A stretch of 64,000 nt of DNA from Streptomyces dengpaensis (GTDB lineage: Bacteria; Actinomycetota; Actinomycetes; Streptomycetales; Streptomycetaceae), in assembly GCF_002946835.1 (NCBI RefSeq), contig NZ_CP026652.1, positions 6,510,001 to 6,574,000 on the forward strand, read 5' to 3'. Positions 6,012 to 28,329 of this stretch are shown here, piece after piece (positions within the stretch are counted from its first letter, which is position 1; each line of letters begins with the position of its first letter). A program made the position numbers and the translations under genes. The notes below the pieces were generated by a model, which worked only from the letters and a program-made list of their open reading frames with translations, was not told the origin of the DNA and ran no database searches.

Positions 6012-7210
6012 AGCGCGCCCTCCGCTCGCAGCGCGTCGATCTCGGGCCCCGTCAGGCCGAGTTCGGTGAGTACCGCGTCCGTGTCCGCGCCGTGCGGGCG
6101 GCCCGCCCAGTGGATCGCGCCGGGGGTGGCGGAGAGCCGGAAGAGGACGTTCTGCATGCGCAGGGGGCCCAGCTCGGGGTCGTCGATCGTGGTGATCGAG
6201 TCCAGGGCGTCGTACTGCGGGTCGGCCATGACATCGCGTACGTCCTGGATGGGGGCCACCGCCGCCTCCGCCTTCTCGAAGGCTTCCAGGACCTCGGCGC
6301 GGGTGTGGCGGGCGACCCAGGAGCCGACCGCCTCGTCCAGGATGTCGGTGTGGCGTGCCCGGTCCGCGCCCGTGGCGAACCACGGCTCGGCGATTACGTC
6401 CGGGCGTCCTACCAGCCGCATCACCCGTTCCGCGATCGACTGCGCCGAGGTGGAGACCGCGACCCAGGAACCGTCCGCCGTGCGATAGGTGTTGCGGGGC
6501 GCGTTGTTCGCGGAGCGGTTGCCGGTACGGGGCTGGACGTGGCCCAACTGGTCGTACCAGATGGGCTGGGGACCGAGCACGGTCAGGATCGGTTCGATGA
6601 TCGCCATGTCGACCACCTGGCCCTCGCCGGTGCGGTCGCGTGCCGTCAGCGCGGTCATCACGGCGTACGCCGTCGCCAGGCCCGCGATCGAGTCGGCCAG
6701 GCCGAAGGGCGGCAGGGTCGGCGGGGCGTCCGGTTCGCCGGTGATCGCGGCGAAGCCGCTCATCGCCTCCGCGAGTGTGCCGAAGCCGGGGCGGTGCGCG
6801 TACGGGCCGAACTGGCCGAAGCCGGTGACGCGGGCGAGGACGAGACGCGGGTTCGCGGCCGACAGTTCCGCCCAGCCCAGGTCCCACTTCTCCAGCGTGC
6901 CGGGACGGAAGTTCTCGATGATCACGTCGGCGGTGGCGGCGAGGCGGAGCAGGGTGTCGTGGCCGCCGGGCTTCGACAGGTCGAGGGTGATCGTGCGCTT
7001 GTTGCGGCCCAGCAGTTTCCACCACAGGCCGACGCCGTCCTTCGACGGGCCGTGGCCCCGGGACGGGTCCGGCTTGGCCGGATGCTCGACCTTGATGACC
7101 TCCGCGCCGAAGTCGCCGAGCATCGTGGCGGCGAGCGGCCCGGCGAAGAGGGTGGCGAGGTCGAGGACGCGCAGGCCGGTGAGGGGGCCGCTCTCCGTGT
7201 GCACGTTCAT
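6008..7210 (-). CDS. Family III (CaiB/BaiF) CoA-transferase
   Basis: Moves CoA between carboxylic acids through an enzyme-bound aspartyl anhydride. 400 aa, full length. N-terminal GLRVLDLATLFAGP and GDFGAEVIKVE, the ENFRPG loop (about residues 99-104), and the likely catalytic Asp173 in PFGLADSIAGL fit the formyl-CoA transferase family. Overlaps both neighbours by four bases (ribokinase upstream, CitE-like lyase downstream). The pairing of a CoA-transferase with a CitE-like lyase suggests activation and cleavage of a di- or hydroxy-acid, but the acid is not identifiable. Confidence 0.9.
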   Translation of the reverse strand: MNVHTESGPLTGLRVLDLATLFAGPLAATMLGDFGAEVIKVEHPAKPDPSRGHGPSKDGVGLWWKLLGRNKRTITLDLSKPGGHDTLLRLAATADVIIENFRPGTLEKWDLGWAELSAANPRLVLARVTGFGQFGPYAHRPGFGTLAEAMSGFAAITGEPDAPPTLPPFGLADSIAGLATAYAVMTALTARDRTGEGQVVDMAIIEPILTVLGPQPIWYDQLGHVQPRTGNRSANNAPRNTYRTADGSWVAVSTSAQSIAERVMRLVGRPDVIAEPWFATGADRARHTDILDEAVGSWVARHTRAEVLEAFEKAEAAVAPIQDVRDVMADPQYDALDSITTIDDPELGPLRMQNVLFRLSATPGAIHWAGRPHGADTDAVLTELGLTGPEIDALRAEGAL

Positions 7211-8100
7211 GAGCCGGCCTCGGCGTCGATCTCGGAGCGGTACGGCATCGAGGACGACGCCCCGGGCCGCTGCACCGACAGCGCCGCCGCCGCCGATGCC
7301 CACGCGAGCGCCTCCGGCATCTCCCGGCCCTCGCCGAGCGCCACCGCGAGGGTGCCGACGAAGGTGTCGCCCGCGCCGGTCGAGTCCACGGCGGTCACCC
7401 GGGGCGCGGGCACGGCCAGCGGTGCGGCGCCCCGGGCCGCGTACAGGCAGCCGGCGGCGCCCAGGGTGACGACGACTTCCTGGACCTGGTCGAGCAGGGC
7501 GGCGGCCGCCTCGCGGGGGTCGGTGACACCGGTGAGCGCGGCGGCCTCGTGCTCGTTGGGCACCAACAGGTCTACGGATGTGAGGAGTTGGGGTGGAAGA
7601 GCTTGCGCGGGTGACGGGGTCAGGATCGTACGGACACCGTGCCTGCGTGCGGCCTCGGCGCCCGCGATGACGGCGTCCAGCGGGATTTCGAGCTGGAGCA
7701 GCAGCGCGTCGGCGGCGGCGATGAGGCCCTCGTCGCCGGGGGCGAGGGCGGTGACCGTGCCGTTCGCGCCGGGGATGACGACGATCGCGTTGCCGCCCTC
7801 GTCGTCCACGACAATGTGCGCGGTGCCGGACGGGCCCTCGATGGTGCGCAGATGGCCGGTGTCCACGCCCGAGTGCTCCAGCGTGGAGCGGAGCTGGGTG
7901 CCGAAGGCGTCCGCGCCCACCGCGCCGATCAGCGAGACGTCGGCGCCCGCGTGGGCCGCGGCCACCGCCTGGTTGGCGCCCTTGCCGCCGGGGATCGTAC
8001 GGAACTCCCGTCCCGTCACGGTCTCTCCGCGCTGCGGGGCCTTGGCGACGTACGCGACGAGGTCCATGTTCGTGCTGCCGAGTACGGCGATGTGGGTCAT
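7207..8100 (-). CDS. rbsK: Ribokinase (PfkB family)
   Basis: Predicted to phosphorylate D-ribose to ribose 5-phosphate. 297 aa, standard length, with the sugar-binding start GSTNMDLV, the GGKGANQAVAAAHAG signature, NEHEA, and the PfkB catalytic motif DSTGAGDTF holding the base Asp near residue 250. There is no rbs transporter or LacI repressor nearby, which is unusual for a ribose-uptake rbsK. Instead it is coupled by 4-nt overlap to four ADP-ribosylglycohydrolase genes, so the ribose it handles may come from glycohydrolase action. That link is inference. Confidence 0.85.
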   Translation of the reverse strand: MTHIAVLGSTNMDLVAYVAKAPQRGETVTGREFRTIPGGKGANQAVAAAHAGADVSLIGAVGADAFGTQLRSTLEHSGVDTGHLRTIEGPSGTAHIVVDDEGGNAIVVIPGANGTVTALAPGDEGLIAAADALLLQLEIPLDAVIAGAEAARRHGVRTILTPSPAQALPPQLLTSVDLLVPNEHEAAALTGVTDPREAAAALLDQVQEVVVTLGAAGCLYAARGAAPLAVPAPRVTAVDSTGAGDTFVGTLAVALGEGREMPEALAWASAAAALSVQRPGASSSMPYRSEIDAEAGS

Positions 8101-9566
8101 GGTCGACGGGTCTCCCGATGCGTGAGGTGGGCGAGGGTGTCGAAGCCGATGCCGTTGAAGTCGGCGATCGAGGTGGCCAGCCGGTTCTTGAGGGGGCTGG
8201 TCCAGCGGTCGGGAAGGGCGGCGGGGCCGCCCGCGAGCAGTCCCGCGATGCTCCCCGCCGTCGCGCCGTTCGAGTCGGTGTCGAGGCCGCCCGACACCGC
8301 ACGGCAGATGGAGCCGGTGAAGTCGCCGTCCGCGTGGGTGAGGGCTGCGGCGATCAGGGCGGTGTTGGGGATGGCGTGGACCCAGTGGTAGGCGCGGTGG
8401 GTGGTGTGCAGTTCGTCGACGACCGTGTCGAAGTCGTCCGTCGTACGGGCGAGGTGCACGGCGTGGCGGACCGCCTGGGCCAGCCGGGAGGCGGGCGGGA
8501 CGACGGTGAGCCCGGTGCGCAGGCACGCGTGGACGTCACTCGTTCCGGTGGCCGCGGTGGCGATGGTGGCCGCCGTGAACATCGCCGCGTAGACGCCGTT
8601 ACCCGTGTGGGTGAGGGTAGCGTCGCGGTGGGCTTGCGCCGCGGCGGCGGCCGGGTCGCCGGGGTTCGTCCAGCCGTGTACGTCCGCGCGGATCAGGGCG
8701 CCGATCCACTCGCGGAACGGGTTGCGGTGGCGGGCCGTGCGTGGGGGTTCGATGCCGGTGAGGAGGTTGCGGTAGGCGATGCGCTCCGCGGTGAAGGTGC
8801 GGCCCGCGGGGAGTTCGTCCAGCCAGAGGCCGGCTACGTCCGTGGTGGTGAAGTTCCTGCCGTGGCGCTGGAGCAACAGGATGTTCAGGAGGGGGTAGTT
8901 GAGGTCGTCGTCCTCCGGCATGCCGTCGATGTTCTCAGCGAGGGAGGTTGGGGCGGAGCGATTGTTCCACGGGTACGTGGTCTTGATCGCGTCGGGGACG
9001 CCGCGTGCCGTGAACCAGGTGTGGAGGGGCCAGTTGCCCGCGGCTCGGGCGAGCGCTCGGATCCCTTCCAGGGGGAGTTTTTCCACCGGTTTGCCGAGGA
9101 GGCACCCTACGGCTCGGCCCAGCCAGGCTGCTTCCAGGCGGGGCTGGGTGGGGGCTGGGGTGCGGGTGGGTGCGCAGCCCGGCGCCGACGGGGTGCCGCT
9201 CTCGTTGGGATGGGCGCCGCCCCTAGTGGCACGCATGCCCACAGCTACGACGGACGGCCAGTTCGGGCAGTGGGCCCTGATTCTTGCCAGGTCCGTTGGT
9301 TCCTGGTCCGCCAAACTGCTGGGCAGGTCTGCCAGTTCGTCGAGGAGGTCTTCCGCCAGGACCCGGAGGTACGGGGATGCCGGGGTCGGGGACGCTCCCG
9401 CGCGGAGGGGGGCCTCCTGGCCGCCTGCCGCGCGCCAGCGGGAGGCGATGGCGCCGGGTTCGCGGCCGTCCTGGGCGGCCTGGTGGAGTTCGTGGCCGAC
9501 GAGGTCTTCCGGTTGGACCCAGGTCAGTCGGAGCCCCGGAGTCGTCGGTCTGTCGGCGCAGGTCAT
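8097..9566 (-). CDS. ADP-ribosylglycohydrolase family protein (operon copy 1)
   Basis: DraG/ARH fold, Mg-dependent hydrolases that remove ADP-ribose or cleave related N-glycosidic bonds. 489 aa, longer than the ~300-350 aa core: residues 1-145 are a Pro/Arg/Ala-rich extension of unknown role, and the ARH domain starts near LEAAWLGRAVGCLLGKPVEK. Metal ligands are visible as the acidic cluster MPEDDDLNY and the C-terminal GGLDTDSNGATAGSIAG, the classic DxD(S/T)xG signature. Also present is THTGNGVYAA. The start ATG overlaps the stop of the preceding copy by four bases. Confidence 0.88.
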   Translation of the reverse strand: MTCADRPTTPGLRLTWVQPEDLVGHELHQAAQDGREPGAIASRWRAAGGQEAPLRAGASPTPASPYLRVLAEDLLDELADLPSSLADQEPTDLARIRAHCPNWPSVVAVGMRATRGGAHPNESGTPSAPGCAPTRTPAPTQPRLEAAWLGRAVGCLLGKPVEKLPLEGIRALARAAGNWPLHTWFTARGVPDAIKTTYPWNNRSAPTSLAENIDGMPEDDDLNYPLLNILLLQRHGRNFTTTDVAGLWLDELPAGRTFTAERIAYRNLLTGIEPPRTARHRNPFREWIGALIRADVHGWTNPGDPAAAAAQAHRDATLTHTGNGVYAAMFTAATIATAATGTSDVHACLRTGLTVVPPASRLAQAVRHAVHLARTTDDFDTVVDELHTTHRAYHWVHAIPNTALIAAALTHADGDFTGSICRAVSGGLDTDSNGATAGSIAGLLAGGPAALPDRWTSPLKNRLATSIADFNGIGFDTLAHLTHRETRRP

Positions 9567-10723
9567 CGTGTTCCCGTCAGGACGGCGTACGCCGACTCGT
9601 GGGCCCGGCGGCGGCGTACGTCCCGTTCGAAGATCTCGCGGGTCACCTCGGTGAGCGTCCTCGCCGGGGCGGCCAGGTCGAGGCGGCTCGACTCCGCCAC
9701 CGTTTTCGCCCAGTCGTGGGGGACCTCGGAGCCGAGGGCGCCGGCGAGGGCGCCGGACATCGTGGCGATGGAGTCGCAGTCGCGGCCGTAGTTCACCGAG
9801 CCGGTGACCGCGTGGCGGTAGTCGCCGCCGGAGACCACCAGCATGCCCAGGGCGACGGGCAGTTCCTCGGTGGAGTGGAGGCGGGAGGGGCGGCGGGCGC
9901 CGAGGGACGGGGAGCGGTAGTCGGGGCCGACCGTGTCGTAGGGGGCCACCGCCTTCCGGAGCGGGGTCAGCGCCGACTCGAAGTCCGTGTGGCGGGCGGC
10001 GACTTCGCAGACCGCCTGGATGGCCGAGCGCGTGCCGTCCTTCGCCGCGGCCAGGCAGGCGGCCACGACGGAGTCCGGGGTCGCCCCGGGGGCGCAGGCC
10101 GCCGCCACCGCCGCCGCGAAGACTCCCGCTGCCTCACGCCCGTACGACGACTGGTGGGCGCCCGCGATGTCGAGCGCCTCGGCGTACGCGCCCGCCGGGT
10201 TCGCCGCGTTGACCAGGCCGACCGGGGCCATGTACATCGCGGCACCGCAGTTGACGATGTTGCCGACGCCCGCCTCGCGGGGGTCCACGTGGCCGTAGTG
10301 GAGGCGGGCCACCAGCCACTTCTCCGCGAGGAAGATCCGCTGGAGGGGGAGGGCCTCGGCCTCCAGCTCGGGGATCCAGCGGGGGGTGCCCATGAGGTCG
10401 GGGACCAGGTGCTCGGCGACGGCGTACGCGTCGAGGTGGTCGCGGACGGTGGCATACACCCGTACCAGCGCATGGGTCATCAAGGTGTCGTCGGTGACGT
10501 GCCCGTCGCCCTTGTGGTACGGGGCGATGGGACGGGCGGTACGCCATTCCGCGCCGTTCCAGGGGCCGACGATGCCGTGGACGCGGCCGCCGTGGCGTTC
10601 GGTGATCTGCTCGGGGGAGTACCCCTCGACGGGGCCGCCGAGCGCGTCACCGACGGCGGCTCCGACGAGGGCTCCGGTGATCCGTTCGTCGAGGGTTCCT
10701 GTTCCTTCTCCTTTGGGCGTCAT
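9563..10723 (-). CDS. ADP-ribosylglycohydrolase family protein (operon copy 2)
   Basis: 386 aa, near the core family length. The N-terminal ITGALVGAAVGDALGGPVEG, the metal-binding VTDDTLMT, and the C-terminal YGRDCDSIATMSGALAGA all conform to the ARH/DraG active site, so this copy looks catalytically intact. Seven bases separate its ATG from the stop of the upstream copy and it overlaps the downstream copy by four. Of the four copies this is closest in layout to a canonical ARH; its actual substrate (protein-ADP-ribose, O-acetyl-ADP-ribose, ADP-ribosylated metabolite) is not determinable here. Confidence 0.92.
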   Translation of the reverse strand: MTPKGEGTGTLDERITGALVGAAVGDALGGPVEGYSPEQITERHGGRVHGIVGPWNGAEWRTARPIAPYHKGDGHVTDDTLMTHALVRVYATVRDHLDAYAVAEHLVPDLMGTPRWIPELEAEALPLQRIFLAEKWLVARLHYGHVDPREAGVGNIVNCGAAMYMAPVGLVNAANPAGAYAEALDIAGAHQSSYGREAAGVFAAAVAAACAPGATPDSVVAACLAAAKDGTRSAIQAVCEVAARHTDFESALTPLRKAVAPYDTVGPDYRSPSLGARRPSRLHSTEELPVALGMLVVSGGDYRHAVTGSVNYGRDCDSIATMSGALAGALGSEVPHDWAKTVAESSRLDLAAPARTLTEVTREIFERDVRRRRAHESAYAVLTGTR

Positions 10724-10730
10724 GCCCGAA

Positions 10731-12473
10731 TCATCCCTCTGGGGCGGCCAGGTCTGTAGCTTCCAGCAGATCGGCGAGTCCGATGAGGTCCGTCCCGGTC
10801 AGACGGGGCAGCGCGCAGCCGGAGAGGGTGCGGCAGGCGTCGCGCCAGGCTGCGGGGATGGCGTCGCCGCCGCCGAGGGCGCCGGTGAGCGCGCCCGCGA
10901 GGGCCGGGGCCGAGTCGGCGACCCGGGACAGACACGCGGCGGCGGGCACCGCCTCGGCGATCCGGCCGCGGGCGGCGGTGGCGAGGGCGAGGGCGACCGG
11001 GACGGTTTCCGCTGCCGCGATGCCGTAGCTGTAGACGTGGTCGACGATCTGATGCTCGAGGAGCGGGACGAGGGCGAAGGTGCTCCCGCTGTCGCGGGCT
11101 AGCCTCAGCGCGTGCCGGGCGTTGCGGCCGATCTCGGTCGACTCGGGGAGTTCGGCGAGCGCGGCGTCCGCGCAGGCGTCGACGTCGGCCCCGGCGAGGG
11201 CGAGCGCCACGGCGGCGGCCATGGCGCGGGCGCCGTGCACGCCATCGCCGTCCTGGGTGTAGCGGGCGTCGAACTCGGCGAGTTCCGCGGCCGGCCGGGG
11301 GTCGCCCGGGTGGGCCACGGCGAGTACGCAGGCCCGTACGCAGGCCGCGTCGTCGAAGTAGTGCGGGTTGTCGTGGCCGGTGGCGGGTGGGCGCAGGCCG
11401 GTGGCGAGGTTGCCGAGCCCTGCCCGTACGGAGATGCGGGCGCGCAGCGGGAGGAGCGCGGACTCGACCTCGGGGGCGAGTTCGGCCGCCGCGGCGACCT
11501 CGCTGGCGATGGCGTTCCACGACAGGTCGATGGACGCCCGCATCCGCCGGTCCCGGCTCAGGTCCCCGAGGGCGGCGCTCTCGCCGGCCCGCAGCACGGC
11601 CTCGGCCGCGAACGCCGCCCACTCCGCGTCGTCCGACGGCCCCAGCTTGAGCGGTTCCGGCGGCTGATTCAACGCGATCGGCACCGGCAACGTCGTCGTC
11701 GCGTTCTGCTCCGCGAACGTGTCCAGCTCCCGCGTCAGCCGCCGCGTCCACTCAGGCATACGCGCGGCCCGATGCCTCGCGGCAGGCCACCCGGCGGCGT
11801 CACCCGCGGCGAGCCCGAGAAGCAGCCCCTCGATACGCCGGGCGCGCGCCCGCGCGGGCGCCGCCACCTCCGGGAGCGACGCCGCGCTCGGGGTCGCGGG
11901 GGTGGGGGGCGCGGCGATGTCGGGCTCCGCTGGGCAGGGTGCCGCCGTGCCGAGCGCCCTCGCGAGGCGTTCCTCCATCCCGGGCATCTTCCTGAGGAGG
12001 TCCTCCACGGTGGGCTCCGCCGTGCCGGGTTCCTCCGAGCCGGGCGCAGCGGCGCCGGTCGCCCCCGTGTCGGGCTCCGCCGTGGACGGCGTCGCCGTGC
12101 CGGGTCCCGTCGTGGAGGTCGCCCCCGCGTCCGGCTCTGTTGTGGAGGTCGTCCCCGTGTCGGGCTCCGTCGTGGAGGTCATCTCCGTGCCGGGTCCCGT
12201 CGTGGAGGTCGCCCCCGCGTCCGGCTCTGTTGTGGAGGTCGTCCCCGTGTCGGGCTCCGTCGTGGAGGTCATCTCCGTGCCGGGTCCCGTCGTGGAGGTC
12301 GCCCCCGCGTCCGGCTCTGTTGTGGAGGTCGTCCCCGTGTCGGGCTCCGTCGTGGAGGTCATCTCCGTGTCGGGCTCCGTCGTGGAGGTCGCCCCCGCGT
12401 CCGGCTCCGCCGTAGACGCCACCCCCGCGCCGGCCCCCTCGGCGGGTTCCTCCCCGGCCAAGCCGGGCCTCAC
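10731..12473 (-). CDS. Divergent ADP-ribosylglycohydrolase-like protein with decapeptide-repeat N-terminus (copy 3)
   Basis: 580 aa from a GTG that overlaps the upstream stop as GTGA. Residues 21-140 are a perfect-register decapeptide array (TTEPDAGATS, TTGPGTEMTS, TTEPDTGTTS), followed by a Pro/Ala linker and an ARH-like domain from about residue 205 (RIEGLLLGLAAGDAAGW). The N-terminal acidic pair is present (GPSDDAEW). In the C-terminal signature, however, the first Asp is replaced: the copy reads SRVADSAPALAGALTG where the siblings have GRDADTT or GRDCDSI. Loss of that metal ligand suggests weak or no hydrolase activity, or a binding or regulatory role. The low-complexity head may be a flexible tether. 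Confidence 0.82.
   Translation of the reverse strand: MRPGLAGEEPAEGAGAGVASTAEPDAGATSTTEPDTEMTSTTEPDTGTTSTTEPDAGATSTTGPGTEMTSTTEPDTGTTSTTEPDAGATSTTGPGTEMTSTTEPDTGTTSTTEPDAGATSTTGPGTATPSTAEPDTGATGAAAPGSEEPGTAEPTVEDLLRKMPGMEERLARALGTAAPCPAEPDIAAPPTPATPSAASLPEVAAPARARARRIEGLLLGLAAGDAAGWPAARHRAARMPEWTRRLTRELDTFAEQNATTTLPVPIALNQPPEPLKLGPSDDAEWAAFAAEAVLRAGESAALGDLSRDRRMRASIDLSWNAIASEVAAAAELAPEVESALLPLRARISVRAGLGNLATGLRPPATGHDNPHYFDDAACVRACVLAVAHPGDPRPAAELAEFDARYTQDGDGVHGARAMAAAVALALAGADVDACADAALAELPESTEIGRNARHALRLARDSGSTFALVPLLEHQIVDHVYSYGIAAAETVPVALALATAARGRIAEAVPAAACLSRVADSAPALAGALTGALGGGDAIPAAWRDACRTLSGCALPRLTGTDLIGLADLLEATDLAAPEG
12054..12413. repeat. In-frame tandem repeat, 30-bp units in a 90-bp higher-order unit
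   Basis: Twelve 30-bp units encode ten-residue Thr/Ser/Glu/Pro/Asp repeats. Within them a 90-bp unit (three decapeptides) is repeated nearly base for base about three times, which implies recent expansion. The frame is kept throughout. Confidence 0.9.
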
Positions 12474-13678
12474 GGGCGGACCTCCTCGTCGTCGGCGGAG
12501 TACACGTAGGCGTCCGCGTAGGGGAGGGCGTTCGTATCCGGGGCGGGAAGCGGGGCGTAGGGCAGTGCGGGCGTGTCCGGGGTCGGGGGCGCCCACTTGC
12601 CCGCCGGATCTCGTACGAGACCGCCCGCGCCCCCACCCGGGTGGGCATCTCGTGCGAGTCCGCCGGCCGCCCACTTGCCGTCGTCGCCCGGGGTCAGCAG
12701 TTCCGCCACGTCCAGTACGTGGTGGCCCTCCATCGAGGGCAGGCAGCTGCCGCGTGCCGGGCCGATGGCCGCTGACCAGGTGGGCGGGATCGAGGAGGCG
12801 CCGTGTGTCGCTCCGGCGAGGGCGCCCGCGACCGCGGCGGTCGTGTCCGCGTCGCGGCCCATGTTCACGGCGGTGAGGACGGACTCGGTGAAGTCGCCGT
12901 CGGCGGCCGCGTACGCGCCGAAGGCGAGGGCGACGGCCTCCGGGGCGAGGTCCGTCCAGGGGTAGCCGCCGATGACGACCGCCGAGCGGACCGCCCGCTC
13001 GCCCCGGTGGGCCACCGCGACCGCCCGGCGCAGTGAGCGGGCCGTCCAGGAGTCGTCCGGGATCACCGCGAGCGCGGAGGCGACCACCGCGATGGTGGGG
13101 GCGCCCGCCATCGCCGCCGCGACCCCCGCCGCCACCGCCTGGCCGCCGTAGATGCCCTCCCCGTCGTGGCTCACCGAGCCGTCGATCGCCACGAGCCGGG
13201 CGGCTTCGGCGGGGCGGCCGGCGGCGAACACGCCGAAGGGGGCCGCGCGCATGGCCAGGCCGTCGCTCCAGGCGTGTCGGTGCTGCGCCGAGATCGGGGC
13301 CGCCAGGCCGCGGCGGAGGTTCTCCAGCGTGCCGCGCTCGCTGAAGCCCGCGCCCCGGAACGAGCCCTCGTCCCGGTCCGCGATCCACTGGTGCCAGGCG
13401 GATTCGACATGCGCCACGGTGAGCGCCGAGCCGTGCCGGGCCAGCAGCAGCCCGGAGAAGATCGCGTACTCGGTGTCGTCCGTCCCGGCCGGATGCTCGA
13501 CGACGAACCCCGTGATCCGGCCCCACTTCGCACGGATCTCCGACGGCTTCATGTTCTCGGCGGGCGCGCCCAGCGCGTCCCCGACGGCGAGTCCGAGCAG
13601 CGCGCCGCGCGCCCGTTCGCGGAGACCGGCGGCGTCCCCGGGCGCCGGGACCGAGGGAATGCAGGCGATGGAAGCCAT
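12470..13678 (-). CDS. ADP-ribosylglycohydrolase family protein (copy 4, operon head)
   Basis: 402 aa, first gene of the seven-gene minus-strand operon. ARH domain from RARGALLGLAVGDALGAPAEN, with metal-binding AGTDDTEYAIFSG and the C-terminal NMGRDADTTAAVAGALAGA, so the catalytic ligands are complete. The final ~70 residues (after LTPGDDGKWAAGG) are a Gly/Pro-rich extension ending DAYVYSADDEEVRP. Begins at ATG 13678, 40 bp downstream (in transcription order) of the MITE-like element at 13718-13923, which therefore lies in or near its promoter. Confidence 0.9.
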   Translation of the reverse strand: MASIACIPSVPAPGDAAGLRERARGALLGLAVGDALGAPAENMKPSEIRAKWGRITGFVVEHPAGTDDTEYAIFSGLLLARHGSALTVAHVESAWHQWIADRDEGSFRGAGFSERGTLENLRRGLAAPISAQHRHAWSDGLAMRAAPFGVFAAGRPAEAARLVAIDGSVSHDGEGIYGGQAVAAGVAAAMAGAPTIAVVASALAVIPDDSWTARSLRRAVAVAHRGERAVRSAVVIGGYPWTDLAPEAVALAFGAYAAADGDFTESVLTAVNMGRDADTTAAVAGALAGATHGASSIPPTWSAAIGPARGSCLPSMEGHHVLDVAELLTPGDDGKWAAGGLARDAHPGGGAGGLVRDPAGKWAPPTPDTPALPYAPLPAPDTNALPYADAYVYSADDEEVRP

Positions 13679-19842: not shown

Positions 19843-19850
<8 letters not shown>

Positions 19851-21303
19851 CCCCAAGGGCTTTCTCCACCACGGCCGTGAGGTCGCCACGTCCCGCCCGG
19901 TGGGCGAGCGCGTCAAGGACTGGAACGAGGTCTACGTTCCGGGCTCGCTCCTCCCGATCATCTCCAAGCAGGCCAGCCGCTGTATGGACTGTGGCATCCC
20001 GTTCTGCCACAACGGCTGTCCGCTGGGGAACCTGATCCCCGAGTGGAACGACTACGCCTACCGCGAGGACTGGCAGGCCGCCTCCGAGCGCCTGCACGCC
20101 ACGAACAACTTCCCGGAGTTCACGGGCCGCCTGTGCCCCGCTCCGTGTGAGTCGGCGTGTGTGCTCGGCATCAACCAGTCCGCCGTGACCATCAAGAACG
20201 TCGAGGTCGCGATCATCGACAAGGCCTGGGACAGCGGCGATGTCGCGCCCCAGGCCCCGGAGCGCCTCTCCGGCAAGACGGTCGCGGTCATCGGCTCGGG
20301 TCCGGCGGGCCTGGCCGCCGCCCAGCAGCTCACGCGGGCGGGCCACACCGTCGCCGTATACGAGCGCGCCGACCGCGTCGGCGGCCTGCTCCGCTACGGC
20401 ATCCCCGAGTTCAAGATGGAGAAGCGGCACATCAACCGCCGTATCGAGCAGATGCGCGCGGAGGGCACCAAGTTCCGTACGGGCGTGGAGGTCGGCCGCG
20501 ACATCGACGCGGCCAACCTGCGCAAGCGGTACGACGCCGTGGTCGTCGCCGCGGGCGCGACCACCGCCCGCGACCTGCCGGTCCCCGGCCGCGAGCTGGC
20601 CGGCATCTACCAGGCGATGGAGTACCTGCCGCTGTCCAACAAGGTGCAGGAGGGCGACTTCGTGGCGCCCCCCATCACCGCCGAGGGCAAGCACGTCGTG
20701 GTGATCGGCGGCGGCGACACGGGCGCGGACTGCGTGGGCACCGCCCACCGCCAGGGCGCGGCCTCCGTGACGCAGCTGGAGATCATGCCGCGCCCGGGCG
20801 AGGAGCGGAACCCGGGCCAGCCCTGGCCGACGTTCCCGATGCTGTACAAGGTCACCTCCGCGCACGAGGAGGGGGGCGAGCGGGTCTACTCCGTGTCGAC
20901 CACCCACTTCGAGGGCGACGAGGACGGCAACGTCCAGTGGCTGCACCTCGTCGAGGTCGAGTTCACCGACGGCAAGCTGAACCAGAAGCCGGGCACGGAG
21001 CGCAAGATCCCCGCCCAGCTGGTCACGCTGGCCATGGGCTTCACGGGGACGGACGTCGAGAACGGCCTCGTCTCCCAGTTCGGCCTGGAGCTCGACGCCC
21101 GCGGCAACATCGCCCGCGACGCCGACTTCGCGACGAACGTCCCCGGCGTGTACGTTGCGGGTGACGCCGGCCGCGGCCAGTCGCTCATCGTCTGGGCCAT
21201 CGCGGAGGGCCGCTCGGCCGCCCGCGGAGTCGACCGCTTCCTGACCGGCGCGAGCGACCTGCCGGCCCCGATCCGCCCGACGGACCGCTCGCTGATGGTC
21301 TGA
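19843..21303 (+). CDS. gltD: Glutamate synthase small subunit
   Basis: GOGAT beta chain: FAD/NADPH oxidoreductase that feeds electrons to GltB. 486 aa. N-terminal 4Fe-4S cysteines in [17 protein letters not shown] and [12 protein letters not shown]-binding [20 protein letters not shown]-binding [14 protein letters not shown]-terminal FAD site [13 protein letters not shown]. Starts inside the end of gltB (8-nt overlap), giving coupled synthesis. Confidence 0.97.
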
Positions 21304-21405: not shown

Positions 21406-21852
21406 CTACTTGCCGGGGGCAACCCAGGTGACGATGACGGCGGCGGCCACGGCCAGCACGCCGAGGAGGGCGAGCCAGCGGGCGGCCTCGACCAGGCGCC
21501 AGATCCGCCGGGTTCGCTGCTTCTCGTAGCGCAGCAGCCGCGTGGGTTCCGCGTAGACCTGCTCGCCCGGTCGGCCGTGCACGGCGAGGACGCTGCACCA
21601 GGATGCGGAGATCAGGGCGAGGAAGCCCAGAATGAGCAAGGAGATCACCGCCCAGCGCGGTCCGTGCGGGAGCTTGCTCAGGTTTTCCTGCCCCTTGAGG
21701 ACGAAGACGGCGGTCAGCAACCCGGTCAGTGAGGAGAGGTACGTGCGGTAGCCCTCCGCCTGCTGGAGTGCGAGCCGCAACTGCTGGTGCGGGTCGCCCA
21801 GGGCGTCCGCTCTGGCTTCCGCCTCGCGCAACTGCTCGTCGGTGAAGGTCAT
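21406..21852 (-). CDS. Small three-helix membrane protein of unknown function (caspase-HSP90 operon)
   Basis: 148 aa. N-terminal 30 residues are amphipathic and Glu/Leu/Gln-rich (MTFTDEQLREAEARADALG), followed by TM segments near YLSSLTGLLTAVFVL, WAVISLLILGFLALISASW and WLALLGVLAVAAAVIV, with a basic RYEKQRTRRIWR loop between the second and third. I do not recognise a family. It is the last gene of the three-gene operon, nine bases after the zinc-knuckle gene. A membrane protein beside a caspase-HSP90 gene could be the membrane target or effector of the system, but that is inference from context. Confidence 0.7.
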   Translation of the reverse strand: MTFTDEQLREAEARADALGDPHQQLRLALQQAEGYRTYLSSLTGLLTAVFVLKGQENLSKLPHGPRWAVISLLILGFLALISASWCSVLAVHGRPGEQVYAEPTRLLRYEKQRTRRIWRLVEAARWLALLGVLAVAAAVIVTWVAPGK

Positions 21853-21861
21853 GTCGTTCGG

Positions 21862-22191
21862 TCAGCTCCCGCCGGTCAGGCCGGCCGGCGGCGGCGCGAG
21901 CGTCAGCAGGGCCCCACAGCCCCGTGCGTTCGCCGGCCGTGGCTGGTGGTAGCTCTCGCACCGGCAGGAGGTCGTCCAGGGCTCGGGCCCGGGGTCCTGA
22001 CGGCGGCCGAGGAAGCCGCCCTTGGATATCAGGGGCTGGACGGGGCCGAAGGAGCGCTTCATCGGGCAGTGGCACACCGGGCAGTCCCCGCTGGCGACGA
22101 GTTCCCTGTCGCCCTCGTTGTCCACGGCCGCCCAGGTGAAGGTGACGATGCCGGAATGGCGCTCGCGCCGGTACTCCGTGACGGGGCTCAT
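21862..22191 (-). CDS. Small Cys-rich (zinc-knuckle-like) protein of unknown function
   Basis: 109 aa. Contains GDCPVCHCPMKRS and, later, TTSCRCESYHQPRP with ARGCGALL, a spacing that could bind zinc. A short beta-rich N-terminus (GIVTFTWAAVDNEGD) precedes it. Its ATG overlaps the stop of the caspase-HSP90 gene by four bases, so it is co-translated and probably a partner, adaptor or substrate. No family assignment is possible from the sequence alone. Confidence 0.7.
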   Translation of the reverse strand: MSPVTEYRRERHSGIVTFTWAAVDNEGDRELVASGDCPVCHCPMKRSFGPVQPLISKGGFLGRRQDPGPEPWTTSCRCESYHQPRPANARGCGALLTLAPPPAGLTGGS

Positions 22192-25100
22192 GAGGGCTCG
22201 TCCTTCCTCTCGTCGTTCGTTCCGGAAACGGTGAGATCGAAGAGGGCGGCGTAGCGGCCGAGCCGCTCGCGGACCTTGTCCTCGTCGAGCCCCGTCTCCT
22301 CGGCGCAGAGGGCGATGTGGTCCTCCGTCACCTCTCCGGACAGCACGGGCGCGCGACCGGTCAGCTGCGCGGTGAGCAGGATGACGTCCTCCCAGTGGGG
22401 TTGCAGCTTCGTCTCCTCGGCGTCCGGCTCCCGCACGGTGACGCTCAGCCCGAGGCAGCGGAACGGCGCGTAGCGCTCGTACGTCCGGCCGAGCGGCCAG
22501 CCGAAACGGCCTGCCACCAGAACGAGTTCGAGGGGGCCGAGCGCGCCCGGTCCGAGCAGGCCACGGTCGAAGGCGGCGTGGTCGAAACGGTCCGGCTCGA
22601 AAGCGGCGAGCCGGTCGGCGTCGGGGCCGGTGAAATCGCCAGGGAGCCGTGGCGCACCCAGCGCGGTGAAACCGGCGAGGCGGGCGACGGACTCGGCCAG
22701 CGGGATGTGGCAGCGCGCGGCGTGGGCGAGCACGTCACCGATCGTGAGCTCGGAGCGGAACCGCACGATGGTGAGCACCGAGGTGTCCACACAGAGCGTC
22801 CGGATGTCCTCCGCGGTCGGACGCAGGGCGCGGGCCACGGGGGGAATGTGTGCGATCTGCAGCGGAAGGGGCGTGGCGAGCTCCTTCAGTTCGTCGGCGA
22901 CCGACCCGAGGTCCCTTCCCTCGTCGGCCGCGAGGGCCGCGAGATAGGCGGCCGAGGCGCCTTCCTCGTCGAGGTCGCCGCTGAAGCTGAGGTATGGGCT
23001 GGTGGACAACCTGGAACTGTCGGGGTCCGGGATGAGCAGCCGGTGTGGCGGGCTTGTGGCCTGACGCTCCAGCGACTCGATGCCGGCCTCGCCCCAGTCG
23101 ATCAGACGGCAGTGGTCGAGCATGGTGAGGCTCTCCCGGAGGTCGCCGATCTCGCCTCCCTGACTGATGAACCCGCCGGTCAGCTGCCACGGCCGCAGGG
23201 GAACGCCCGTCGACCCCACCGTGAGGTCCTGTACCGTGTCGGCGACCCACTCCGGCACCTGCCAGTCGGCGGCCTGCTCGGGAATGGCGGGAGCCCGTGC
23301 ACCTGTGATCTCCGTGCCCGCATTGATGCGCTCGGCCACCGCACCCAGGGGCACCTTGAGGAGGTGTGAGGCTCTCAGCAGGTGATAGAGAGGGACATCC
23401 CCCTCGTTCCACGGTGCTGAACGGTCCAGGTCCTCGGCGAGCAACAGTTGCTGATCAGGGGGCAGTGCGCCGAGGCGGCACGCCGCTTCTGTGGGTGGGC
23501 TGTCGAGGCTGAGACCGAACGCGTGCAGCGACTCGATGAGTCGTGCCAGCCGGTCAGGTGTGAACGGCCGCGCGGTCCTGCTGAGCAGATCGGCTTGGCC
23601 CACGGTGCCCGCCAGCCACTGCACTTCGTCGGACCAGGGGGTTCGGAAAGAGGTGCCCTTGACGGCGAGCGCCATCACCTCGGACATGGTCAGGCACTTC
23701 TCGGCAAGTCCGGGATCGAGCGGCGGAGGGACCGGCAGGGAGGGATCCAATCGGTGCAGGCTGTCGAGCAGTTCGGTGACCTCGCCCAGGGCGAGTCCGT
23801 GCAGGGCGGATATGACGAGGAGGGGTGCGTGCTCGGCCGCCGGCCGCCTCCTGCGCAGTTCGTGGTCACGCATGAGGAACCGGTGCGGCGCGGTGTCCTG
23901 CAGCGCCCGGACATGGTCGCTGAGGCTGGTGTAGGCGGAGTACAGGTCTGCTTCGGCCTGGGAGACCGTCAGCTCGTTCAAGGACTCCAGGTCTTCGACC
24001 GACGGGACCGCAAGCCCGGTGACCGCGTAGCGGCGCAGTGCGCGCAGAGCCCCACGGACCGAGGTCTGCGCATAGGCGGCGGCCTGAAGCACGGTGGCCA
24101 ACGCATTCGGGGTGCCCTTCATGAAGATCAACGAGTCGAGACCGATGGGCCGGGGATAACTCTCGGGAGCGAAGCGGTCCTTGGCCTGGCGCAGGCCCAG
24201 CCGGGTGGCCTGCCAGTCGTGGAACAGCTTGCTCTCTTCCGGCCGCTTCTCGTCGAGCTCCGGCGGTGCCCAGTAACCGTTCAGCCAAGCGCTGTCATAG
24301 GGAAGGCATCCGGCCTGGTCCAGCCGCACCTGCCCCACGCCCAAGCGCCTGCCCGTGGTCGACTCCAGCGTCGCGGTGACCTGAGGGGGCAGAGCATCCA
24401 GTACGGCCACGGCCACCGAGGGAGCCGCTCGGGTGAGCTGCCACAGCCACGGGAGGGACACCTCCGTGCAGTCGGCGACGGCCTCCGCCACCCCGTCCAG
24501 GAACTCTTGAGTGACCAACTCCTCGTCGTACGACAGAAGTTTGTTACGGTCCACGCTGGGCGCGGGACTGTGCCGCTCCCGCAGATTGATCACGCGCCCG
24601 AACACAGTCGGGGCTTCGGGCATGCGCACGCCGTCCAGGAGGAGTTGCCCCGGCCCCTGGACCAGCCACAGGTCGCCGTCCACGCCGACTGGCAGGGGGT
24701 CGCCCCGCCAGCCGTCCCGCCCCTCCAGCCGCCCCGGCGGCCACGCGAGTTCCCCGGCCAACTCCCCGGCCTCGCTGAGCTCCGCGGCCGTCACCCGGTG
24801 CTCCGTCACCCACAACAGTTCCCGTAGCGTCTCCACCAGCGACGGATGCTTCTCGCCCTCCCGCGACTCGGCCAGATACAGCCGGACCCTGGTGCCGCCG
24901 TCCTCGGGCACCTCGGCGTCGTGCGAGCCACCGATCTGCAGCATCCCGGAACCCGACTGGATGTCGGCCCGCAGCGCGGGCTCCGCGCTCACCCGGCCGA
25001 ACCGGTCCACCGCTCGGGTCCACACGACGACCTCGTCGGCGAGCATGAAGTAGCTGAACACCCCGATCCCGAAACGAGAGTTCATGGCCGGCACGCTGAT

Positions 25101-27398
25101 GCCCTCGCGGCGCCAGTTGCGCCGTTCCTGGACGAACTCGGGGTCCTGCTCGTAGCGCTTGCCTGCGCGCGCGAACATCGAGGTGAGCTTGGCGCGGGTC
25201 ATGCCGGAGCCGTTGTCGAGGCACTCGATGTACGGCCGCCCCTCGTGCCAGCCCTGGGTCAGGGTGATCGTGCCGTCCCAGGTGGTGCGGAGTCGGCCGT
25301 ACCGGCGGCGCACGTCCCGGTAGCGGCAGGCGTCCAGGGCGTTCTGATACAGCTCGCGGACCGCCAGCATCCGGTCGCCGTACAGTTGGGTGCCCATGAG
25401 GAGCGGACGGATCTCGTCCTCGGCGAGGCGGAAGCGCTCCAGCGGCTCCTTGTACCGGCCGGGCAGGGGCCTTAGCTCATCGGCCGTGACCCGGCTGGGC
25501 AGACCCCGCAGCAGCGGCTGGGCCCTGGCATCCGCGCCGAACGCACGCACCGTGGCATCGGCCGCGAGCGTCAGCTCCTCGAGCGCCGCGTGCAGTGCGG
25601 GGTGCGGGCAGTTGAAGCGCACGGCGAGTCCGTAGGAGTCGGCGGAGGGTCCCTCCGTGATCTCGTAGTCGAATCCGCCGAGCGCCGCGCCGATCTGCCT
25701 GGCCACGATGGGTTCGTGCGCGCCGAGGTGGTCGACCAGCACGCTGGAGAGTCTGCGAGGATCGGCGGCGAGCAGACCCGCCGTCCACAGCAGACGGGCG
25801 ATCTGGTGCCCACGCCACTGATTGCCGCGCACCGGCTTGGTGTCGATCCATTCCTCGCCGTGGGCCGTGTCGCTGATCCGCGGGCCGCGGTCCGGCTTGA
25901 CCGTGAGGTGACCGAGAACCTGACGGACCTGCCGGTCGACCTCCCGTCGCTCCTCGTCGCTGCGCGGTCCCGCGGCGGGACTGTCGGCCGCCGCCTCGAT
26001 CGCCTTCACGACGAGGTCGATCAGCTCGTCGACCGCCGGATAGCCGCCGGGCGGCTCCCACTCCCACAGCCGGTCCCAGTCGGCGATGAAGCGGTGCCGC
26101 AGCCAGTGGTCCGCGGCGGCGGTGGCCTCCTTCAGGTTGCGGCGGCGGAGGGTCTCCGTGGCCCGCAGCACCTGCGGATGAGCGCGGCAGACGTCACGAG
26201 CGGCCTCGCGGACCAGCCCATTGTGGTCGTCGGCCCGCCTGTCCCCGCCACGCGGGCCGGGATCGAGACGGCCGGGCAGCAGTCGGCGCAGTTCGTCCAG
26301 GGCGATGGTCACGACGCCCTCCTGCACCACAGCGGCGGCCAGCAGACAGGCGGTCTCGGCGGGGGAGAGCGACTCGTCGTGCTGCAGCTCCGCCCGGGCC
26401 ACCAGCGCGGAGAGCCGCTCCTCCACCCGGGCCGGGTAGCGCGGATCGGACCAGGGGTCGTCCCGGTGGGCGGCGGTGCCCTCGCTGCTCTCCACGACCC
26501 AGCGCACCAGCTCCACCAGGCGTTCCTTGACCCGCTCGTGCACGGCAGCCTGGCCGGACGTGTGCCGCCACAGCTCCGACTCCCGGACGATCCGGGTCCA
26601 CTCCAGGGTCTGCTCCGACCCCTCGCACACCACCGGGTCGCGGTGTTCGGCATCGCCGGACGGCCAGGGGAGCTGCTTGGCGACGGTGGGCGGCTCGACG
26701 TGCGCGTACTCGTCCGCGATGCGGATCAGTTCCGTGGCCGTGTACCGGGCGACCTCGTGGAAGGTGGTCGGCGGAGTCACCCGGGACAGCGCCTCGGCGA
26801 AGGCCTGCGCGAACCAGCTTCCGGCCACCGGGTCCGCGTAGGAGCGCTGGCCGGCACCGCAGCTGTAGAGCCAGTACGCCTCGTGGTCGGAGAGCCATCC
26901 ACCGGCCTCGTCCCGCTCGTGCCGTTGCGGGCCGCTGGTCCGGCAGATGTCGAGACAGACGACCGCGGTGACGCCCTGCGGGAGACGACGCAGCAGTTCG
27001 CTCGGATCGGCCCTGAGCAGCGTGTTGGTGTCCAGGGCCGGACTTCCGTCCGCGGACGGCCAGTCGGCCTGGCTGTCGGCGAGGACCAGGTGGTCCCGGT
27101 TGTTCACCGTCTCGCCGTGCCCGGAGAAGTACAGGAGAGCCGTGTCGCCCGGCTCGCAGGAGGCGAGGAACCGCGACACGGTCCCGATGACGGGCCCGCG
27201 ACCGGTGTCGTCGGACTTGACCTCGACCTCGTAGTCCGACTCCTCCAGGGCGGTGCGGACCAGCGACAGGTCGCGGTCGACGAAGTCGAGGCTGCCGTAG
27301 CGGACGGCCAGTTCGGGATGCTCCGCGAGATACGGCGTCTCCCGCACGCCGATCAGCAGTGCGCGCCTTCTGCCGCCGGCCGCCTTGTCCCCCGTCAT
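22188..27398 (-). CDS. Caspase-like peptidase fused to HSP90-type GHKL ATPase and C-terminal helical repeats
   Basis: 1,736 aa multidomain protein. Residues about 10-245 are a caspase/metacaspase-like (C14) domain: LLIGV strand, catalytic His94 in YFSGHGE, and Cys152 in VVCLDICRTS. Residues about 250-660 are a helical linker. Residues about 660-900 are an HSP90-type GHKL ATPase: N-box RELYQNALDACRYRD (Glu682, Asn686), ECLDNGSGM (Asp728), and FGIGVFS (about 776). The C-terminal ~650 residues hold degenerate helical units with recurring text such as VPLGAVAERI and IPLAESVARLAGF, like the winged-helix repeats reported in actinobacterial conflict proteins. Start ATG 27398 has GGAGG upstream; an ATG 13 codons earlier lacks one. 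Known relatives are proposed NTP-dependent anti-invader or suicide systems; activity here is inferred. I recall gltD and the chitosanase as near neighbours in S. coelicolor, so this operon may be an insertion. Confidence 0.85.
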   Translation of the reverse strand: MTGDKAAGGRRRALLIGVRETPYLAEHPELAVRYGSLDFVDRDLSLVRTALEESDYEVEVKSDDTGRGPVIGTVSRFLASCEPGDTALLYFSGHGETVNNRDHLVLADSQADWPSADGSPALDTNTLLRADPSELLRRLPQGVTAVVCLDICRTSGPQRHERDEAGGWLSDHEAYWLYSCGAGQRSYADPVAGSWFAQAFAEALSRVTPPTTFHEVARYTATELIRIADEYAHVEPPTVAKQLPWPSGDAEHRDPVVCEGSEQTLEWTRIVRESELWRHTSGQAAVHERVKERLVELVRWVVESSEGTAAHRDDPWSDPRYPARVEERLSALVARAELQHDESLSPAETACLLAAAVVQEGVVTIALDELRRLLPGRLDPGPRGGDRRADDHNGLVREAARDVCRAHPQVLRATETLRRRNLKEATAAADHWLRHRFIADWDRLWEWEPPGGYPAVDELIDLVVKAIEAAADSPAAGPRSDEERREVDRQVRQVLGHLTVKPDRGPRISDTAHGEEWIDTKPVRGNQWRGHQIARLLWTAGLLAADPRRLSSVLVDHLGAHEPIVARQIGAALGGFDYEITEGPSADSYGLAVRFNCPHPALHAALEELTLAADATVRAFGADARAQPLLRGLPSRVTADELRPLPGRYKEPLERFRLAEDEIRPLLMGTQLYGDRMLAVRELYQNALDACRYRDVRRRYGRLRTTWDGTITLTQGWHEGRPYIECLDNGSGMTRAKLTSMFARAGKRYEQDPEFVQERRNWRREGISVPAMNSRFGIGVFSYFMLADEVVVWTRAVDRFGRVSAEPALRADIQSGSGMLQIGGSHDAEVPEDGGTRVRLYLAESREGEKHPSLVETLRELLWVTEHRVTAAELSEAGELAGELAWPPGRLEGRDGWRGDPLPVGVDGDLWLVQGPGQLLLDGVRMPEAPTVFGRVINLRERHSPAPSVDRNKLLSYDEELVTQEFLDGVAEAVADCTEVSLPWLWQLTRAAPSVAVAVLDALPPQVTATLESTTGRRLGVGQVRLDQAGCLPYDSAWLNGYWAPPELDEKRPEESKLFHDWQATRLGLRQAKDRFAPESYPRPIGLDSLIFMKGTPNALATVLQAAAYAQTSVRGALRALRRYAVTGLAVPSVEDLESLNELTVSQAEADLYSAYTSLSDHVRALQDTAPHRFLMRDHELRRRRPAAEHAPLLVISALHGLALGEVTELLDSLHRLDPSLPVPPPLDPGLAEKCLTMSEVMALAVKGTSFRTPWSDEVQWLAGTVGQADLLSRTARPFTPDRLARLIESLHAFGLSLDSPPTEAACRLGALPPDQQLLLAEDLDRSAPWNEGDVPLYHLLRASHLLKVPLGAVAERINAGTEITGARAPAIPEQAADWQVPEWVADTVQDLTVGSTGVPLRPWQLTGGFISQGGEIGDLRESLTMLDHCRLIDWGEAGIESLERQATSPPHRLLIPDPDSSRLSTSPYLSFSGDLDEEGASAAYLAALAADEGRDLGSVADELKELATPLPLQIAHIPPVARALRPTAEDIRTLCVDTSVLTIVRFRSELTIGDVLAHAARCHIPLAESVARLAGFTALGAPRLPGDFTGPDADRLAAFEPDRFDHAAFDRGLLGPGALGPLELVLVAGRFGWPLGRTYERYAPFRCLGLSVTVREPDAEETKLQPHWEDVILLTAQLTGRAPVLSGEVTEDHIALCAEETGLDEDKVRERLGRYAALFDLTVSGTNDERKDEPS

Positions 27399-27430: not shown

Positions 27431-27459
27431 ACATCATGACAGCAAAGAGCCGGTGACAA
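27431..27459 (-). promoter_or_regulatory. Possible promoter of the caspase-HSP90 operon
   Basis: On the minus strand TTGTCA, 17-bp spacer, TGATGT. The -35 is one base from TTGACA; the -10 is poor. It would start transcription about 25 bases before the preferred ATG. Confidence 0.25.
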
Positions 27460-27477: not shown

Positions 27478-28329
27478 CTACGGCACCTTGTACGTCTCCC
27501 CGTACACGCTCCACACCAGCGGCGTGTCCAGGTTCAGGTTCCCGTCGTACAGGAACCGCCGCTGGGCCGTGTCGATGCGGGTGGTGTCGCGGTGGGCGTC
27601 CTTGGACTTCATGGCTTCTCGGCGGACGTCGAGGAAGATGTCGAGGTAGGCCTTCTCGGAGCCGCCCTCGGCGGGGGTGTCGGCCTGGGCCATGGCGTGG
27701 GTGCGCAGGCCGTAGAAGCCGTCCGCACTTGTGCCAGGTCCGTGCATGACCATGGCGTCGTAGTAGATGAACTGGCCCAGCGTGCCGAGGCCGTCGAGTC
27801 CGGCGCGGCGGACCGCGGGGTCGAAGTAGACGCGGTCCCGCTCGGCGTCCTGGGCCCTGCGGAAGGCCGGCACCGAGGCCTCCTTGCGCCACGCGGTGGG
27901 GAAGCCCGGGTCGAGACCCTCATGGGAGTCCGTGCCGTCGACCTCGCGCAGGGCGGGCAGGTAGCGGGCGAGCCCGTTGTCCGGGTGGTCCTCCGTGTAC
28001 GCCTCGACCACGGTGAGCAGGTCGTGGGTGCCGGTGCAGAAGCCGATGATGCCCGCCGTGTATCCCTGGCCGTCGCCGATGTCCTCGATGTAGGCGTACG
28101 CGCTGCGCCAGTTCAGCGTCGAGTTCTCCGCGCTCGCCACGATCTGCTGGGCCAGCTCCTTCTTCTCCGGGGCGGCGAGGCCCTCGCCGTCCCGGCGCTC
28201 CGCGTCCTGGCCCGTCCGTGGACGCTCGTCGGCCGGGCCCGGGTCCTCCGAGGACCCGGGGGTGATGAAGAAGACCGCCGTCGCGACCAGGGGGACGGCC
28301 GACAGCAGCAGGAGACGACCACGCTTCAT
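27478..28329 (-). CDS. csn: Secreted GH46 chitosanase
   Basis: Endo-beta-1,4-glucosaminidase of glycoside hydrolase family 46, hydrolysing chitosan outside the cell. 283 aa: N-terminal signal-like segment MKRGRLLLLSAVPLVATAVFF, a disordered Asp/Glu/Pro linker (about residues 25-55), then the catalytic domain with the GH46 signature QIVASAENSTLNWRSAY and YIEDIGDGQGYT, which carry the catalytic Glu and Asp, and GIIGFCTGTHD. Length and motifs match characterised Streptomyces chitosanases. It is monocistronic or co-transcribed with the rhomboid gene 20 bp upstream. Confidence 0.94.
   Translation of the reverse strand: MKRGRLLLLSAVPLVATAVFFITPGSSEDPGPADERPRTGQDAERRDGEGLAAPEKKELAQQIVASAENSTLNWRSAYAYIEDIGDGQGYTAGIIGFCTGTHDLLTVVEAYTEDHPDNGLARYLPALREVDGTDSHEGLDPGFPTAWRKEASVPAFRRAQDAERDRVYFDPAVRRAGLDGLGTLGQFIYYDAMVMHGPGTSADGFYGLRTHAMAQADTPAEGGSEKAYLDIFLDVRREAMKSKDAHRDTTRIDTAQRRFLYDGNLNLDTPLVWSVYGETYKVP

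Follow-up and report, generated by a model that had tools for sequence, protein, structure and literature searches.

Bacterial gasdermin systems place a small membrane-acting protein beside a caspase-like protease. A different kind of switch is seen in proteins built from iHD-CE, HSP90 and wHTH-HSP90_Na-assoc parts (PF24401, PF24391 and PF24410), families that reportedly go back to Nicastro and colleagues (NAR, 2023). Here we analyzed a 64,000-nucleotide stretch of the Streptomyces dengpaensis genome (GCF_002946835.1, NZ_CP026652.1, 6,510,001 to 6,574,000), hereafter the window, in whose own numbering positions are given. On its minus strand, reading of the open reading frames (ORFs) revealed a three-gene unit that encodes a large caspase-bearing protein with the same chassis and Pfam families, a Cys-rich protein (Cys) and a membrane protein (TM3). 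The chassis is of an already known, Pfam-named kind. Its partner here is different: neither Cys nor TM3 reached the cut-off of a curated family in Pfam or NCBIfam, and neither had a match in PADLOC. We found that the Cys–TM3 pair is a portable module, new here, that recurs beside different proteases.

The unit resembles the EACC1–caspase two-gene membrane systems of actinobacteria, which, in the available part of Kaur et al. 2020 (PMC7159879), likewise combine an N-terminal caspase with a small membrane partner. However, the EACC1 described there has one transmembrane (TM) helix and is encoded 5', whereas TM3 has three, is encoded 3' and is separated from the caspase gene by the Cys gene. The gene 5' of our large gene encodes a chitosanase, no 5' single-TM EACC1 gene is present, and the caspase scored 36.5 bits against a cut-off of 140 in the caspase_w_EACC1 model of NCBIfam. 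The same part of that paper (PMC7159879) deals with MoxR–vWA ternary systems and EAD1 coupling; such genes adjoin fused Cys–TM3 proteins at two of our loci (L201 and L161), whereas Pfam detected no MoxR, vWA or EAD1 part in the unit of the window. The initial annotation had credited comparative work on actinobacterial conflict systems with caspase–HSP90 fusions, an attribution that is not borne out, as the term 'HSP90' was not found in the available portion of the 2020 paper on such systems. TPR-CHAT proteins, as in the type III-E Craspase (PMC9729208, available portion), likewise hold a caspase-like protease under sensor control, and CHAT proteins proved to be alternative partners of Cys–TM3. 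TM3 differs from gasdermins in being short and helical, and Pfam gave no match to them; fold searches returned no relative of TM3, a result that excludes nothing. The cut proposed below lies in a separate protein.

Co-occurrence of the three genes was examined in 199 Streptomyces genomes. The large protein had matches in 67, many of the weaker ones covering the HSP90 or the caspase part only, and strong matches (E <= 1.5e-90, caspase covered in all) in 18, including the genome of the window. TM3 relatives were detected in 23 genomes, namely all 18 with a strong match and G102, G011, G041, G082 and G091, that is, in 18/18 strong-match genomes versus 5/181 others (Fisher 2e-21, uncorrected for kinship); in G102, contig ends interrupt the large gene, whose caspase part was not seen. 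The large gene, Cys and TM3 were all present in 18/18 (17 fetched relatives and the window), with the large gene of G128 interrupted, and 11 of the 17 relatives had an ORF that overlaps the end of the large gene just as the Cys gene does in the window (offset -3). With 23/199 genomes for TM3 and 18/199 for the strong large match, presence in the genus is patchy, as had been anticipated.

Beyond the genus survey, we scanned named genomes using a profile built mostly from HSP90-partnered TM3, which yielded 62 loci in Streptomyces, Streptacidiphilus, Kitasatospora, Micromonospora, Actinomadura and Acrocarpospora, and a class-wide search detected TM3 in 17/394 genomes and 10/137 genera. After removal of 12 identical copies and one double row from a total of 101 rows, 88 distinct TM3 loci remained. 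Nearby, defined as up to several kilobases, 66 of these loci had a caspase–HSP90 protein (18 of them originally found with the large protein), nine had a CHAT protein and 13 had neither; for the 70 loci found by TM3 itself, the corresponding counts were 48, 9 and 13. All partners lay within ~350 bases of TM3 except for the broken large genes of L035, L132 and L137. The Cys gene was found in 65/66 caspase–HSP90 loci and 9/9 CHAT loci, and the Cys pattern matched 90 ORFs within 1.5 kb of TM3 versus 0/13,532 other ORFs. Because the S. dengpaensis genome (8.7 Mb) has just two C14 and three CHAT matches in total, adjacency to a protease by chance is improbable. Seven CHAT partners were inspected, and each had a His and an LSAC Cys motif.

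We also searched out of sample with a profile of CHAT-type TM3. Among 35 genomes of one family it gave four matches, all already known; 150 genomes from a second family yielded 22 matches, 21 of them new. Profiles assigned to these 21 loci 12 CHAT partners, five caspase–HSP90 partners and one caspase–STAND–WD40 partner (L208), the last with AAA/STAND-like and WD40 regions in Pfam and a caspase at 18.9 bits (cut-off 21.4) that has its GHG and DCC in place. At L205, the CHAT gene is 807 bases away and TM3 is a fragment only, and at L196 a truncated CHAT piece lies by TM3. L201 contains EAD1-trypsin, MoxR-type AAA and CoxE-type vWA proteins; the neighbors at L204 resemble them, with a CHAT–STAND–TPR protein ~4 kb off. 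The Cys pattern was not matched at L194, L196, L200 and L205, and at L194 and L196 a small CxxC gene occupies the usual position of the Cys gene. At L161, L201 and L204, Cys and TM3 are fused in a single ORF. Ten proteins of this fused kind were found (305-316 residues, the query's own included), and the named ones are annotated as hypothetical proteins, in Dactylosporangium and Actinoplanes.

Since the same pair adjoins other proteases, Cys–TM3 appears to be exchangeable between switches. We tentatively suggest that it might serve actinobacteria as a general membrane effector, as yet unnamed, that proteases activate; it would be unrelated to gasdermins and used in at least four sensor chassis (HSP90, TPR-CHAT, STAND–WD40 and MoxR–vWA/EAD1-trypsin), and cutting of the zinc-type protein in an exposed loop (at Lys–Gly with caspases) would trigger the 3-TM protein to disable the membrane. 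If true, bacterial caspases would have a non-gasdermin execution step, namely a membrane module of two parts that different proteases can set off. The literature searched contained no measurement of what bacterial HSP90-type switches put out; as the proposal names a substrate and a residue, their output could be tested by a simple cleavage assay.

In the large protein of the window, Pfam detected Peptidase_C14 (3.2e-16), iHD-CE (3.5e-77) and wHTH-HSP90_Na-assoc (1e-17, the better of two stretches). The GHKL ATPase was weak in Pfam (HATPase_c, 0.016, below cut-off); it is HSP90-like by NCBIfam (2.5e-12), though far below the equivalog cut-off of that model, and the region also matched solved HSP90 structures (7e-6). 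Thus, iHD-CE, an HSP90-type ATPase and wHTH-HSP90_Na-assoc all occur here within one protein. The helical regions noted in the initial annotation are real, but its helical linker is the iHD-CE domain and its helical repeats include the wHTH repeats. PADLOC gave only a weak caspase match (4.6e-4). We compared 64 distinct caspase–HSP90 proteins, 60 from TM3 loci and four from loci without TM3 (L048-L051); their selection relied on length and on similarity in the caspase and HSP90 regions, and the residues compared below played no part in it. The caspase residues His94, Asp150 and Cys152, located in YFSGHGE (residues 90-96) and VCLDICR (147-153), and the HSP90 residues E682, N686, D728, G730, G732, G777 and G779 did not vary in 64/64, which upholds the earlier description of an intact caspase and of intact ATP motifs. 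The most variable part was residues 1001-1500, where the commonest residue had a mean share of 0.28-0.32, which would be expected for a sensor.

When a profile of 25 caspase regions was compared with solved structures, the closest were MALT1 paracaspase (1.7e-9) and metacaspases, from metacaspase-4 (3.6e-7) on. MALT1 and metacaspases cut after basic residues, and an Asp two residues before the catalytic Cys is the acid expected for this specificity. As Asp150 stands two residues before Cys152 in all 64 proteins, the caspase of the window, by analogy with these enzymes, is probably of the paracaspase/metacaspase sort and would be expected to cut after a basic residue.

A candidate for such a residue is found in Cys, a six-Cys protein for which no relative was found among solved structures. 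In an alignment of 79 distinct Cys proteins, the invariance of CPxC, CxC and GCG is partly due to the search pattern itself, whereas a His (His82 in the window) was kept in 79/79 though absent from that pattern. In the discovery set, 62/65 caspase-partnered Cys proteins had a Lys at offset 15-19 after CPxC (the exceptions being L109, L135 and L160), and so did 6/6 found later; Lys–Gly occurred at this site in 51/65 and 6/6, respectively. Lys makes up 1.8% of Cys-protein residues. A loop Lys was seen in none of the CHAT-partnered Cys proteins (0/9 in the first set and 0/9 in the later set, 0/18 together) and was also absent from the fused proteins of L161, L201 and L204. The predicted structure of the window's Cys is beta-rich (mean pLDDT, predicted local distance difference test, 83.3), and its sole stretch under pLDDT 50 is residues 57-65, which begins at Lys57. 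Lys57 is thus a candidate cleavage site. The initial annotation had proposed that one of the small partners is cleaved by the caspase; this proposal is indirectly supported here, and the evidence points to Cys as the substrate and TM3 as the membrane component.

In a variant of this explanation, Cys would be an antitoxin-like inhibitor or chaperone of TM3 that is removed by the protease, TM3 alone being toxic. The large majority of loci encode Cys alongside TM3, and Cys bears the conserved loop Lys, both of which fit such a role, but the natural Cys–TM3 fusions sit less easily with simple degradation of an inhibitor, although a cut in the linker would still work; on balance, we regard this variant as doubtful. 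As a separate observation, L109 and L135, which are without a loop Lys at the usual offset, have a second caspase–HSP90 gene (1,682 and 1,699 residues) after the three-gene unit, and a gene for 311-325 residues in between.

TM3 had been described as a three-helix membrane protein. There are indeed three hydrophobic segments, but the model (mean pLDDT 80.2) shows four helices (5-18, 21-53, 63-92 and 103-144), of which three carry such a segment. On average, TM3 proteins have 5.9 basic residues in the N-terminal part, 5.8 in the loop before the last helix and 0.9 in the first loop. This concentration suggests an N-in, C-out topology; however, the charge bias is modest because acidic residues gather in the same two regions (5.3 and 4.5). 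All long forms of TM3 (32/32) have at least two Cys within their last 70 residues, which the positive-inside reading places outside. It is therefore conceivable that Cys–TM3 is a membrane docking or sensing station rather than an effector, in which TM3 would sense the envelope through a disulfide-type outer domain in the long forms and signal via Cys, and the protease would cut other cell proteins. The occurrence of TM3-like proteins without a protease agrees with this, as does the recurrence of the pair beside several proteases, which would be expected of a shared input. However, TM3 is at most 180 residues in 26/58 rows, and the window's TM3 and its close kin are among the forms without an outer domain, so that an outer sensor is inessential; moreover, the large proteins already have a big variable C-terminal part, and the Lys in the disordered Cys loop would be left unexplained. 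We consider a docking or sensing role unlikely.

Instead, we favor, with a probability of about 0.52, a protease-gated conflict unit (serving self-limitation or immunity) in which Cys–TM3 acts at the membrane. In this model, the large protein would be a cytosolic switch whose HSP90-type ATPase, C-terminal wHTH-bearing part and inactive-HD domain sense a trigger. Without the trigger, the switch would hold the N-terminal caspase off, as STAND/NLR nucleoside triphosphatases do elsewhere. Once triggered, the caspase would cut Cys within the disordered loop, Lys57 being the likeliest residue to precede the cut. The two small proteins may operate as a single unit at the membrane, and the cut would release or re-arrange TM3, which could then permeabilize or otherwise disable the membrane, so that the cell stops.

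The trigger, the cleavage, the topology, the membrane action and a benefit against phages or other invaders are inferred, and several points weigh against the model. The 66:9 ratio of caspase–HSP90 to CHAT partners is biased because of the make-up of the TM3 profile. At L082, Cys and TM3 occur without a recognized peptidase (of the neighbors scanned, one is an EF-G and the other matches M48 at the borderline), and at eight TM3 loci out of the 88, both a Cys gene and a peptidase are missing nearby (L081, L117, which is at a contig start, L141, L152, L153, L155, L162 and L163); TM3-like proteins can occur alone. Four more of the 13 loci with neither partner have a Cys gene: L077; L125, located where a contig begins; L136, in which the large gene is reduced to a C-terminal piece; and L161, which adjoins an EAD1-trypsin protein. 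The co-occurrence of the small genes with the large one, on which the initial annotation had made its reading depend, held in 18/18 strong-match genomes but not in G140, G193 and G097 (L048-L050), whose caspase–HSP90 matches are weaker and which are without TM3 and Cys, so that it is partial; since such proteins occur, the caspase–HSP90 switch does not require the module. In Cys, a narrower offset of 16-18, within which all 62 discovery Lys fall, held for 5/6 later proteins, and the loop-Lys contrast may reflect shared descent instead of a tie to the protease because caspase-partnered rows group together in the TM3 tree. A rule for CHAT partners, Arg or Lys at offset 14, fitted 7/9 of the first loci but only 3/9 of the later ones, and was rejected. 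Structure and fold searches found no solved relative of TM3.

The neighborhood weighs in the same direction. No defense-island context was found among 93 neighbor proteins, which had scattered PADLOC matches only (PDC-S48 in three, DEDDh in three, others in one each), and the commoner Pfam families among operon neighbors are metabolic. The anti-invader role originally proposed for the operon was not supported by its surroundings and is drawn by analogy. The metabolic neighbors would suit a regulatory, non-lethal unit in which proteolysis of Cys alters gene expression or envelope physiology in development or stress; the C-terminal wHTH repeats could bind nucleic acid, and the unit beside gltD (see below) has been kept in place within one clade. 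Nevertheless, the very patchy presence and several broken copies are unlike a developmental regulator, and the chassis family carries exchangeable N-termini. Such a regulatory role thus appears improbable to us, and the conflict unit described above remains our preferred explanation.

The layout of the unit is given in Table 1. The three-gene operon reported initially was found as described, with all three ORFs on the minus strand and coupled; the gap between the Cys and TM3 genes is 9 bp. An alternative upstream ATG at 27437 would give a large protein of 1,749 residues. The large protein is single-copy in the S. dengpaensis genome.

Table 1. Features of the caspase–HSP90/Cys/TM3 unit and its immediate neighbors in the window
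Feature	Positions	Strand	Basis
Caspase–iHD-CE–HSP90–wHTH protein, 1,736 residues	22188..27398	-	
Caspase domain (Peptidase_C14), residues 10-247; His94, Asp150, Cys152	26658..27371	-	Pfam and alignment
iHD-CE domain, residues 267-644	25467..26600	-	Pfam
HSP90-type GHKL ATPase region, ~residues 650-845; ELYQN, DNGSG, FGIGVFS	24864..25451	-	
wHTH-HSP90_Na-assoc repeat, residues 1667-1716, the stronger of the two stretches	22251..22400	-	Pfam
ATGA overlap of large-gene stop and Cys-gene start	22188..22191	-	
Cys protein, 109 residues, CPxC ... CxC ... H ... GCG; candidate protease substrate/adaptor	21862..22191	-	
Lys57 codon, candidate basic P1 residue, start of disordered loop 57-65	22021..22023	-	
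TM3 protein, 148 residues, three hydrophobic helices, expected N-in/C-out; candidate membrane effector	21406..21852	-	
gltD, convergent neighbor at the insertion site (context)	19843..21303	+	Pfam
GH46 chitosanase, upstream, co-directional (context)	27478..28329	-	Pfam

The gltD gene was present in 198/199 Streptomyces genomes, the sole miss being G079 (78% complete), and a related chitosanase in 148/199. In at least 32 genomes, counted by eye among the matches listed, the two lie within 1 kb of each other (fetched examples of this closed site are L078-L080), and six genomes (L070-L075) carry three to five other genes in the gap, in two kinds of cassette. The gltD–chitosanase gap is a small insertion hotspot. 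The operon lies between the two genes in the window and in G128, and beside gltD in five more close relatives, while G041 retains just Cys and TM3 at gltD (L077, remnant at 9944-10728, without the large gene). Because these eight gltD-site rows form one clade in the TM3 tree (100/98), one old arrival with later losses better explains the pattern than a recent insertion. Thus, the initial view of the operon as inserted agrees with the closed site in at least 32 genomes, but the unit has long stood beside gltD in this clade. Since the gap holds other cargo in other genomes, the three genes might be together by genomic hitch-hiking, yet they are co-conserved at many other sites and in other families, with co-occurrence beyond chance, which makes this explanation extremely improbable. 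In G128 (L035), a transposase-like pair (96 and 287 residues, IS3 type by eye) is inserted within the large gene at ~7554-8734 and is a natural inactivation of the gltD-site copy. Other broken copies are the C-terminal piece of the large gene at L136 and the split large genes at L132 and L137.

Relatives of the iHD-CE–HSP90 chassis in the genus differ in both the N-terminal part and the neighbor, indicating that one switch can carry different N-terminal effectors and partners. At L048, the caspase has a Pepco neighbor, and L049 and L050 look alike; a different caspase is carried at L051, L054, L061 and L064 (by eye; L054 by Pfam); and further iHD-CE–HSP90 proteins have no caspase. Pfam detected no Pepco in the two small proteins or the chitosanase of the window. 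The caspase–HSP90 genes of L048-L050 share one neighborhood, with the Pepco gene (L048) or a similar gene upstream, and a neighbor at L049 is presumably murQ. At L054 and L061, a DoxX/DoxD-like membrane gene comes after the gene for the different caspase–HSP90 protein and is another candidate membrane partner.

In addition, the gene order was altered at L106 and L128, where Cys and TM3 precede the caspase–HSP90 gene, and the unit adjoins what we take to be argG-like genes. At L161, the fused Cys–TM3 and EAD1-trypsin genes adjoin a gene (5930-10384) for a 1,484-residue protein that contains ricin-type lectin repeats and whose end is weakly Tox-REase-5-like. Elsewhere in the window, at least two of the tandem genes at 9563-13678 presumably encode relatives of ADP-ribosylglycohydrolase, judging by an N-terminal motif, and a transposase-like ORF at 46165-47385 has an N-terminus that we assume to be of the IS110 type.

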